Positions 40,413 to 43,764 of a stretch of 64,000 bases of DNA are shown here, piece by piece; the first letter of the stretch is position 1, and each line of letters opens with the position of its first letter. The DNA comes from Acidobacteriota bacterium (GTDB lineage Bacteria > Acidobacteriota > Thermoanaerobaculia > Multivoradales > Multivoraceae), in the NCBI GenBank assembly GCA_026707325.1, contig JAPOXA010000037.1, positions 186,001-250,000 on the forward strand, given 5' to 3'. The notes beneath the pieces are model-generated. The model saw nothing but the letters and a program-made list of their open reading frames with translations. It was not told the DNA's origin and ran no database searches. A program made the position numbers and the translations under genes.

Positions 40413-40886
40413 GTGCCGGAACCCGTTCAGCAGACGATTCGGCTCTCCATCGGCAGTCGGTACGAGAACATCGAGCTGGTGCAGGCGGTGCTCGACGAAA
40501 CGCTGGAGTCCCTGCCGATCGACGAGGAGACCGCCTACTGGATGGAGATCGCGTTACGGGAGGCGCTGACCAACGCGATCAAGCACGGCAACGGCCTCGA
40601 TCCGGAGAAGAAGGTCGACGTGTGTCTGGCGGTGGGCAAGAGCGGGATCGACATCACCGTCGAGGACCAGGGCAGCGGCTTCGATCCTGGCGCCGTGGCG
40701 GACCCGCTGGCGCCCGACAACCTGCTCAAGACGGAAGGCAGAGGCATCTTCTACATGCGGAAGTTCATGGATAAGATCGACTACGATTTCGGCGCCGGCG
40801 GCGGCACGAAGGTTCGGCTTCACAAGAAGTTCGACGCCCCGGCCAGCAGCGCCGAAGCAAACCAGGGAGGAGCGAATGAAGATTGA
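40413..40886 (+). CDS. Anti-sigma factor kinase (RsbW/SpoIIAB-like)
   Basis: A 157-residue GHKL-fold ATPase. The N box is ALREALTNAIKHGN (near 47-60), the G1 box EDQGSGFDP, and the G2 region GRGIFYMRKFMD. Such kinases bind a sigma factor and phosphorylate a STAS antagonist. The next gene is just such a STAS protein, overlapping by 11 bp. No sigma factor gene is nearby, so the controlled target is unknown. GTG 40413 has a GGCGGAGG upstream. Confidence 0.85.
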   Translation: MPEPVQQTIRLSIGSRYENIELVQAVLDETLESLPIDEETAYWMEIALREALTNAIKHGNGLDPEKKVDVCLAVGKSGIDITVEDQGSGFDPGAVADPLAPDNLLKTEGRGIFYMRKFMDKIDYDFGAGGGTKVRLHKKFDAPASSAEANQGGANED

Positions 40887-41214
40887 CAAGCGCCAGCGGG
40901 ATGGAGCGACGATTCTCGATCTCCAGGGCAGGATCACGATCGGCGAGGGCGACGTTGCCTTGAGAGAGGCTGTCCTCGCGGCGGTCGGCGAAGGCGCGAC
41001 GAACATCCTGCTCAACATGGGGCGCGTGCGCTCCATCGACTCCTCCGGCGTCGGTGAACTGGTTGCCGCCTACACCACGGTCACCAACCGGGGCGGCAAG
41101 CTGCGTCTGTTCTCCATGCCGAAGAGGGTTTTGGGCGTGCTCGAGATCACCCAGTTGATCACCGTCCTGGACATCCTGGAGGACGAGGCCGAGGCCGTCG
41201 CTTCGCTCGCCTGA
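40876..41214 (+). CDS. Anti-sigma factor antagonist (STAS domain)
   Basis: A 112-residue single STAS domain. The phosphorylation site is in VRSIDSSGVGEL (near 52-63); DLQGRITIGEGDVALREAV and LRLFSMPKRVLGVLEITQL are standard. In the partner-switching scheme the unphosphorylated form releases the sigma factor from its kinase. ATG 40876 has a GGGAGGAGCG just upstream and lies within the kinase gene's 3' end, so the two are coupled. A predicted membrane PDZ/S41-like protein follows 7 nt later. Confidence 0.9.
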   Translation: MKIDKRQRDGATILDLQGRITIGEGDVALREAVLAAVGEGATNILLNMGRVRSIDSSGVGELVAAYTTVTNRGGKLRLFSMPKRVLGVLEITQLITVLDILEDEAEAVASLA

Positions 41215-41221
41215 GAGAGCG

Positions 41222-42439
41222 GTGAACGCGGAAGGCAGGGGGCGGTCGCGGGAGCATCGCCGCCACGGGGTCGGCGGCGGCCGTCAGGCTGTCGTCTGGC
41301 TGTCCCTGCTCCTGGTTCTTGGTCTCGCCGGCGGCGCCTGGCTGGGCGCCAGCGACGACGCGGAAGACGGCGGACGGGACTCGATCTACAAGTACCTCAC
41401 GCTGTGGGAAGAGGTACTTCGGCTGATCCGGGGCTCGTATGTCGAGGAGACCGACGGACGCAGCCTGACGGCGGGCGCCATGGATGGGGTGACGGATGCC
41501 CTCGATCCCTTCTCGGTCTACGTGCCGCCGGGCGAGGTCGAGTCGTACCGGGCAGCGCGTGAGGTAGGCCGCCGGCATTCGGGCGTCCTGGTGCTGAAGG
41601 AGCGCGGCACTGCCTATGTGGTCGCGGTCGACGGCGGCAGCCCGGCCGAGGCCGCGGGTCTGGAGCGGAACGACATCGTCGCCGGTATCAACGGTCGCTC
41701 TTCGCGGGCGATGCCCCTCTGGGAACTGCGGCGTCAGCTCGCCGGCCCGGTTGGTTCCGAACTGGACCTGGAACTGGTGCGGCGCGGCAACAGCGTGGAA
41801 GCGAGCCTGACCCTGGACGAGTACGAACCGCTGCAACCCGAGTTCGAAGAGGTCGACGGTGTCGGCCTGCTGAGGATCCCGAGCTTCGGTTCCGGCACGG
41901 TCGCACAGGTGGAGGCGTTGCTCGACGGCTACGCCGGCGACTCCCTGCTGATCGATCTCCGCGGCGTGGCGGGGGGTTCCGCGGAGGCTGCCTACGCGGT
42001 AGCGGGCCTGTTCGCGGAGGGCGAGCTGGGCAGCCTGATCGACCGGGACGGCCGGAAGCTCGCGACCTTCCAGGGCGCGGGGGGCCTGTACTCGGGCGAT
42101 ATCGGCGTCCTGACCGATCGCAGTTCCCAGGGACCGGCCGAGATCCTGACCGCCGTCCTGCGTCAGTCGGTCGACGCGGACCACTACGGCGAGTCGACCT
42201 TCGGCTACGCCGGAACGCTGCAGCAGATCGAGCTGCCGAACGGCGGCGGCCTGCTGGAAACGACCGCGGCCTTCTACACGGACCCGGAAGGTGAACGGCT
42301 GAACGGCCGTATCCGCGTCGCCAACGAAGACCGCCTGAGCGCGCTCTTCTTCGGCGAGAGGGACGAGGGAACGGATCCGATGCTGGAAGGCGCCCTGGAG
42401 CTCATCCTCGAAGCTCCCGCCGAGCCCGCGCAGTTGTAG
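41222..42439 (+). CDS. PDZ/S41-like periplasmic protein, predicted pseudoprotease
   Basis: A 405-residue membrane-anchored protein with the shape of a C-terminal processing peptidase: signal anchor (about 23-42), N-terminal helical part with AMDGVTDALDPFSVYVP, PDZ domain (about 115-200), and an S41 core. The catalytic serine position is Gly (G304 in RSSQGPAEIL), and the catalytic lysine position is Tyr (Y329 in STFGYAG). The 25-residue spacing of these positions matches the Ser-Lys spacing of S41 enzymes, so the alignment is secure. It is probably a non-catalytic scaffold or sensor. It sits right after the kinase/STAS pair. GTG 41222; the 3' end overlaps mazG by 38 bp on the other strand. Confidence 0.82.
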   Translation: MNAEGRGRSREHRRHGVGGGRQAVVWLSLLLVLGLAGGAWLGASDDAEDGGRDSIYKYLTLWEEVLRLIRGSYVEETDGRSLTAGAMDGVTDALDPFSVYVPPGEVESYRAAREVGRRHSGVLVLKERGTAYVVAVDGGSPAEAAGLERNDIVAGINGRSSRAMPLWELRRQLAGPVGSELDLELVRRGNSVEASLTLDEYEPLQPEFEEVDGVGLLRIPSFGSGTVAQVEALLDGYAGDSLLIDLRGVAGGSAEAAYAVAGLFAEGELGSLIDRDGRKLATFQGAGGLYSGDIGVLTDRSSQGPAEILTAVLRQSVDADHYGESTFGYAGTLQQIELPNGGGLLETTAAFYTDPEGERLNGRIRVANEDRLSALFFGERDEGTDPMLEGALELILEAPAEPAQL

Positions 42440-43253
42440 CCCGCTTCGCCCGCTCCCACAGCCGTTCCAGTTCCTCCATCCGGTGGTCGCCGCCGGGCCC
42501 GAGCTCCGCCTCCATGGCCGCGAAGCGGCGACGGAACTTGCGGTTCGCCGCCGCCAGCGCGCGCTCCGGGTCCACCTTCAGGTGGCGGGCCAGGTTGGCG
42601 ACCGCGAACAGCACGTCGCCCAGTTCCTCTTCGACCCGCGCCTTTGCCCCGGCGGATCGGCTGGCCCGGTCGCCGGCCGTCTCGCGGTCCAGCTCGCCGA
42701 GTTCCTCGGCCACCTTGGCGCGCACGGCTTCGGTCGAGTCCCAGTCGAAACCGATACCGGCCGCTTTCTGGCCGAGACGGTAGGCGCCGACCAGGGCCGG
42801 CAGGGAGATCGGGACGCCGTCCAGCGCGGAACGCTCGCCGCCGGAGTTCCGCTTGCGCTGTTCCCACATCGCCGCGACTTCGGCCGCGGAACCCGGCCCT
42901 GCCTGGTCCTTCTCGTCGCCGAAGACGTGAGGGTGGCGCACGACCATCTTGTCGATCACGGTGCGGATCGCTCCGCCGAGGGGTATCTCCTCCAGTTCGG
43001 CGCCGGCCAGCCGGGCGACGTACACCGCCTCGAACAGCAGATCGCCCAGTTCCTCGTTGATCGCGGCGGGATCGCGTTCGTCGATCGCCGCGGCCAGTTC
43101 GTGGGCTTCCTCGATCAGATAGGCCCGAAGATCCGCCAGTGACAGCTCACGGTCCCAGGGGCAGTCGATGCGCAGCCGATCGATCAGCTCGGCGATCGGA
43201 GCGAGCGAGCAGGAGTCGGTTCCCGCGCCGTCGCCTTTGTTACGATCTTGCAT
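42402..43253 (-). CDS. mazG: Nucleoside triphosphate pyrophosphohydrolase MazG
   Basis: A 283-residue two-domain MazG. It hydrolyses NTPs and dNTPs to monophosphates, clearing abnormal nucleotides. The first domain has DCPWDRELSLADLRAYLIEE and ELGDLLFEAV; the second has VAEELGELDRE and EEELGDVLFAVANLARH with NRKFRRRF. ATG 43253 was chosen at the first residue consistent with a normal length. It converges with the S41-like gene and is divergent from the DUF1844 gene. Confidence 0.92.
   Translation of the reverse strand: MQDRNKGDGAGTDSCSLAPIAELIDRLRIDCPWDRELSLADLRAYLIEEAHELAAAIDERDPAAINEELGDLLFEAVYVARLAGAELEEIPLGGAIRTVIDKMVVRHPHVFGDEKDQAGPGSAAEVAAMWEQRKRNSGGERSALDGVPISLPALVGAYRLGQKAAGIGFDWDSTEAVRAKVAEELGELDRETAGDRASRSAGAKARVEEELGDVLFAVANLARHLKVDPERALAAANRKFRRRFAAMEAELGPGGDHRMEELERLWERAKRATTARARRELRG
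43241..43246 (+). promoter_or_regulatory. TACGAT -10 box for the DUF1844 gene
   Basis: TTACGAT lies 29 nt before GTG 43276, overlapping the divergent mazG start. Here a Shine-Dalgarno follows, unlike the leaderless cases. Confidence 0.35.
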
Positions 43254-43275
43254 TCGTTGGGAGCGGAGGTCGGAA

Positions 43276-43764
43276 GTGAAGGTAACCGACAGAAGGATGT
43301 TCACGGACGACGGCGAACTGCGCGAAGAGTACCGCTTCCTCGAGCAGCAGAAGGCCGGGGGAGCCGCGCCGGCCGCGGAGCAGCCGCCCCCGGTCGCTGG
43401 CCAGGACAACGCGCCTCGTGCGAGCGAGTCGCCGGCCGGCGGGGCTGGACAGGCCGCATCCGCGACGCCGTCCCAGGGCGCCGGAGCCGCCGAGGCTCCG
43501 CGGATGCCGCCGGGCGGGGCGCAGTCTCCGGGCTTCATGGACCTGGTCGCCGTTCTGGCCGAGCCGATCGCCTTCCTGCTCGGCGATGCCCAGTTGCCGG
43601 ACGGTCAAAGCGCCCAGGATCTGCCGCGGGCCCGGCTCCACATCGATTTGCTGGCGGTGCTGCAGGAGAAGACGCGGGGCAACGTCCCCGAGCAGGAGAC
43701 GGCCGTGCTCGAGGATCTTCTCGCGCAGCTCCGGATGCGGTACGTCGAGAAGAGCCGGACCTGA
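43276..43764 (+). CDS. DUF1844-domain protein
   Basis: A 162-residue protein. The N-terminal MKVTDRRMFTDDGELREEY is charged; a Pro/Ala/Gly-rich linker follows; the C-terminal part, FMDLVAVLAEPIAFLLGD with LHIDLLAVLQEKTRGNVPEQE, is the DUF1844 domain. Function is unknown. GTG 43276 has GGAGGT 5 nt upstream. The following 224 bp contain only promoter elements of dnaK. Confidence 0.75.
   Translation: MKVTDRRMFTDDGELREEYRFLEQQKAGGAAPAAEQPPPVAGQDNAPRASESPAGGAGQAASATPSQGAGAAEAPRMPPGGAQSPGFMDLVAVLAEPIAFLLGDAQLPDGQSAQDLPRARLHIDLLAVLQEKTRGNVPEQETAVLEDLLAQLRMRYVEKSRT

Follow-up and report, generated by a model that had tools for sequence, protein, structure and literature searches.

The protein psS41, encoded in the window (the whole 64,000-nucleotide stretch of Acidobacteriota DNA that was analysed), belongs to the S41 C-terminal processing protease (CTP) family by its fold and PDZ domain, and it lacks the Ser-Lys catalytic dyad. 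We propose with moderate confidence that psS41 represents the CtpA member of a cell-wall operon, envC-ctpA-sddA, that has become a pseudoprotease, and that it would act as a PDZ/CTP-fold binding protein regulating peptidoglycan hydrolysis. Our reservation mostly concerns the mechanism; judged from the sequence comparisons, it is nearly certain that the dyad has been lost and that relatives carry the gene in this operon. We found no description of an S41 pseudoprotease lineage of this kind in the open-access literature.

The psS41 reading frame starts with GTG and encodes 405 amino acids, with no internal stop in the translation of the window (Table 1). The Pfam profile Peptidase_S41 (PF03572) matched the protein with an E value of 7e-17 (61.9 bits; cut-off 24). 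Ahead of the S41 core, PF17820, PF13180 and PF00595 all scored above their cut-offs (PDZ_6, E value 2e-8), in agreement with the initial annotation, which had described a retained PDZ domain. S41 annotations deserve checking, given that proteins of the psS41 type score as peptidases well above the curated Pfam cut-off. The CtpB_N-like profile PF22694, covering the N-terminal dimerisation region, reached 25.9 bits, just below its cut-off of 27, and the structure model places helices there at residues 55–72 and 79–94, partly with low confidence. The N-terminal region is the most conserved stretch of the dead form. Residues ~22–43 are a putative signal peptide or anchor, and the predicted cytoplasmic part is only ~20 residues long. 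The host genome belongs to the class Thermoanaerobaculia, and a protein from Candidatus Multivorans thiocomprendens is 99% identical to psS41.

Table 1. Features of psS41 and its neighbours, with positions in the window
Feature	Position	Strand	Evidence
HATPase_c_2 anti-sigma-type kinase (context, outside the conserved operon)	40413..40886	+	PF13581
STAS-domain protein (context, 7 nt upstream of psS41)	40876..41214	+	PF01740
psS41, CtpA-type S41 protein with a PDZ domain and no catalytic dyad	41222..42439	+	Translation, Pfam, orthologues, model core pLDDT >90
Hydrophobic N-terminal segment, residues 22–43	41285..41350	+	Read from translation; conserved in orthologues
PDZ domain, residues ~115–200	41564..41821	+	PF17820/PF13180/PF00595; structure match to PDZ of DegS, DegQ and CTPs
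S41 core, residues 214–362	41861..42307	+	PF03572 match
Gly304 codon GGA, catalytic Ser position	42131..42133	+	Alignments, including PDB-anchored
Tyr329 codon TAC, catalytic Lys position	42206..42208	+	Alignments, including PDB-anchored
MazG-like gene, convergent, overlapping the psS41 3' end	42402..43280 (start approximate)	-	Name from sequence reading and synteny

The predicted structure, with a core pLDDT above 90, matched CtpA of Helicobacter pylori, CtpA of Pseudomonas aeruginosa and CtpB of Bacillus subtilis with Z scores of 32.2, 31.2 and 31.1, respectively, over 330–340 residues. The H. pylori and B. subtilis proteins share the psS41-like fold with its PDZ domain and S41 core, but both are active proteases. 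P. aeruginosa CtpA (7rpq, 8sxe) has the same domain order as psS41, and the gene of psS41 relatives likewise lies between those for EnvC and SddA; however, the P. aeruginosa enzyme is proteolytically active and has LbcA as its activator, whereas psS41 has Gly and Tyr at the Ser and Lys positions.

The initial annotation had held that both catalytic residues are lost and that their 25-residue spacing makes the changes real, and both statements were borne out. The best PDB sequence match of the orthologue profile was P. aeruginosa CtpA (7rpq; E value 3e-46), whose active-site serine falls opposite G304 and whose FGKG lysine falls opposite the FGYAG region of psS41. This serine has been named Ser-302 (PMC8764530), and in the crystallised S302A mutant the alanine falls in the G304 column. 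The canonical CtpA of the host genome carries Ser and Lys in the same columns. A one-residue indel adjoins the Lys column (FGKG-LVQ versus FGYAGTLQ), and the residue there can be read as Y329 or A330; neither alignment has a lysine. The PDB-anchored alignment ruled out misalignment of the catalytic residues, 25 residues apart at G304 and Y329, as did two MAFFT alignments that agreed in their residue calls.

Could psS41 still be a protease with a rearranged active site? Dead forms keep Ser or Thr at position -2 and Glu at position +3 of the Ser column, and the relatives in family f10 (family codes f1 to f74 are labels internal to this analysis) retain Ser and Lys as well as the Gln of GKSIVQ. 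However, the -2 and +3 residues are equally conserved in normal, active CtpAs, where they are not the nucleophile; they are thus structural and do not mark a new active site. In dead forms, the Lys column holds H, L, M, D, W, Y, R or F, and many rows have W, F, L or M there. Since most of these residues are unable to act as a general base, the group has no alternative dyad in common, and we consider a rearranged protease highly improbable.

We compared 125 rows from the class Thermoanaerobaculia and other Acidobacteriota classes, most of the genomes being metagenome assemblies. The Ser-Lys pair was missing in 115 of the 125 rows, and two alignments gave the same residue calls. The Ser column held Gly (97), Ser (12), Arg (8), Ala (3), Asn (3), Gln (1) and Asp (1), and the Lys column His (28), Leu (18), Lys (15), Met (15), Asp (13), Trp (11), Tyr (10), Arg (6) and a few others. 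Both residues occurred together in only 10 rows, all of them from f10 (10 of its 16 rows) and none from other Acidobacteriota classes; by contrast, the canonical CtpAs that were read had Ser and Lys in 8 out of 8 cases. On these alignments, the dead form extends through almost all of the class and into other classes of the phylum. Family f10 itself also contains Ala+Lys, Gly+Lys, Gly+Arg and Ser+Arg forms, and its sister family f11 has Gly+Lys. The phylum offers a natural series for studying how a protease becomes a regulator, running from Ser+Lys through Ala+Lys, Gly+Lys, Ser+Arg and Gly+Arg to Gly paired with Met, Asp or an aromatic residue.

Closer to the window, same-genus relatives (84–99% identity) have G304 together with Y or H at position 329. 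Across the window's order, Gly occupied the Ser column in 37 of 38 rows, the remaining row (R/D) coming from a genome with 9% contamination, and the Lys column held H, Y, W, L or F. Of the two residues highlighted initially, the Gly is thus shared by orthologues in the order and the Tyr is not constant. The initial annotation had also named orthologues with Ser and Lys as the sign of a recent pseudogene or an alternative catalytic arrangement; these were absent from the window's whole order but present in the sister family f10. Because the order lacks Ser and Lys while f10 has them, the change to the dyad is ancient, and probably repeated, and not a recent decay.

The sequence of these events can be told in two ways. 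The fewest irreversible Ser losses were 6 on the class tree and 14 on the phylum tree. In the ancestral state reconstruction, a model allowing regain, with one extra parameter, fitted slightly better than one without regain (lnL -20.06 versus -21.74), and it makes the common ancestor of the class a dead form. Repeated loss may account for the pattern, and so may re-activation in f10 of a protein that was already dead in that ancestor. It is a speculative and rather unlikely possibility that the operon-linked CtpA of the class ancestor was already a pseudoprotease and that f10 has since recovered the catalytic Ser, with or without the Lys, as a natural re-activation in the original operon.

Homology searches returned matches in 40 of 41 relatives and in 145 of 149 genomes of the class Thermoanaerobaculia, counts that include the separate canonical CtpA; the orthologue proper was read row by row. 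Within the genus, dN/dS for psS41 was 0.15–0.35. As these values exceed those of the neighbouring genes, the constraint is moderate: psS41 is under purifying selection, weaker than that on its neighbours. A recent pseudogene was ruled out by the open frame, the Gly conserved in the order and a dN/dS well below 1. We also rejected a frameshift. The single split copy (L058, in genome G015) is divided over three frames and sits in a locus where the neighbouring CNT, CAAX and acyl-CoA dehydrogenase genes are split too, which looks like an assembly error, probably from indels.

By degrading peptidoglycan hydrolases, CTP proteases (CtpA and Prc, for example) keep these enzymes under control. Gene order in relatives points to this setting for psS41. 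Outside the window's genus, across genera, families and orders of the class, psS41 orthologues lie between an upstream gene for an EnvC-like amidase activator, with a coiled coil and an M23/LytM domain, and a downstream gene for a PF04748 divergent polysaccharide deacetylase (SddA/YibQ), which follows directly in most relatives. In other Acidobacteriota classes, where PF04748 adjacency alone was checked, an S41 protein adjoins PF04748 in 29 of 30 fetched loci. The corresponding P. aeruginosa operon is envC-ctpA-PA5135, in which CtpA degrades peptidoglycan endopeptidases and PA5135 is the orthologue of Escherichia coli YibQ/SddA (PMC12569750); E. coli SddA, encoded beside envC, deacetylates denuded peptidoglycan strands (PMC12440217).

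The window's genus departs from this arrangement. Neither EnvC directly upstream nor PF04748 directly downstream of psS41 was present, the PF04748 protein was absent from all 21 genomes of the genus, and a profile search of the genus did not find full-length EnvC. Retention of EnvC elsewhere in the window's genome was considered and rejected, as the matches were confined to the C-terminal M23 domain in other proteins of the M23 type. The MazG-like gene that follows psS41 in the window stands beyond SddA in relatives. Loss of EnvC and SddA in the genus, which would have left psS41 beside STAS, is the simplest explanation.

The initial annotation had instead linked psS41 to the adjacent kinase and STAS genes, suggesting a periplasmic peptide-binding sensor for partner switching. 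The 7-nt gap that it gave is correct (the STAS stop codon ends at 41,214 and psS41 starts at 41,222, on the same strand), co-transcription of psS41 with STAS in the genus is possible, and several families of the window's order have HATPase-STAS genes ahead of EnvC. They were seen at the locus in that order only, however, usually with EnvC between STAS and the psS41 orthologue. Other orders have no HATPase-STAS pair there and yet keep EnvC and SddA, and the direct 7-nt adjacency was observed in no genus but the window's, in which no full-length EnvC was found. The conserved neighbours are thus EnvC and SddA/YibQ, not the anti-sigma kinase and STAS, and it is these that travel with the gene across the class. 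Given also the short predicted cytoplasmic part, we consider a sensor of the HATPase-STAS pair very unlikely. The other half of that suggestion, binding without proteolysis, remains reasonable in view of the old, conserved loss of the dyad and the retained fold and PDZ domain.

A canonical CtpA-like match accompanies the dead form in nearly every genome, at another genomic site, and it can cover normal CTP work. In quick trees with SH-aLRT support only, the window's sequence fell inside the clade of the operon members of the class, and the branch to canonical CtpA received SH-aLRT values of 99–100. P. aeruginosa CtpA grouped with the long canonical CtpAs, so the equivalence between psS41 and P. 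aeruginosa CtpA rests on gene order and not on phylogeny. The presence of an intact copy raises the main rival to our reading: psS41 may be a dead regulatory subunit that joins intact CtpA in one complex by way of the dimerisation regions at the N and C termini, so as to tune the activity of CtpA or direct it to targets. Bacterial CtpA forms a trimer of dimers that is inactive until activated (PMC8764530), and the N-terminal region, the most conserved part of the dead form, would suit such a partner. Against this, psS41 shares only ~28% identity with the intact CtpA of its genome, whose reading frame is longer and lies elsewhere. Overall, we regard co-assembly as rather unlikely, though as the strongest of the alternatives.

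The S41 fold is also used for binding in the vertebrate IRBP/RBP3 modules, which matched the psS41 model with Z scores of 14–17 and bind retinoids (PMC2000878); these proteins are animal, multi-module and unrelated in context. Following retinol-binding IRBP, the psS41 cleft might have been repurposed for another ligand, such as a small molecule, glycan, lipid or metal, and families do carry specific sets of residues at the former active site (e.g., E303/H329/H332 in f13 and R/D pairs in f14). These residues differ strongly among families, which makes one common ligand unlikely, and the PDZ domain has been kept. We therefore consider a repurposed cleft improbable. Among other dead proteases, iRhoms (rhomboid pseudoproteases) and CspC/CspA are precedents for retention as regulators, but their folds and biology are unrelated to psS41.

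Taking the operon context together with the retained scaffold, we return to psS41 as a binding protein of the cell-wall operon. In active CTPs, the PDZ domain binds substrate C-termini (PMC8764530). psS41, predicted to be exported or anchored, keeps the PDZ and CTP scaffold without the means to cut, and its PDZ/CTP cleft may bind C-terminal tails or unfolded segments of periplasmic proteins and leave them uncut. psS41 could in this way restrain, localise or present peptidoglycan hydrolases or LytM-type activators during septal cell-wall remodelling. We propose peptidoglycan remodelling at division because of the gene's place in the envC operon; since SddA and, at profile sensitivity, EnvC are missing from the window's genus, this link to division comes from other families. 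In that genus, psS41 would act without SddA and, as far as was found, without canonical EnvC, so it cannot depend strictly on either. A dead CtpA conserved in its operon across the phylum suggests that part of hydrolase control is possible by binding alone.

Several side observations concern individual families and genomes. One genome (G033) carries two dead S41 copies, one of them beside canonical CtpA, which may reflect duplication or contamination. In f13 (12 loci), a conserved Glu (TEG) and an HxxH motif (GHAPHM or AHADHM) stand where Ser and Lys were lost, possibly forming a new metal or ligand site; at one locus (L204), all three f13-type residues have changed together. Four f14 loci combine Arg or Gln at the Ser column with an Asp at the Lys column, and the two residues might form a salt bridge in place of the dyad. 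Six f18 loci have an insert of up to ~45 residues between the Ser and Lys columns. Finally, a PDZ-loop Arg (R162 in the window, 41,705–41,707) recurs in almost every dead form of the class, whereas f10 and f11, the families in which Lys or Arg is retained, have Gln, Glu or Thr at the same position.
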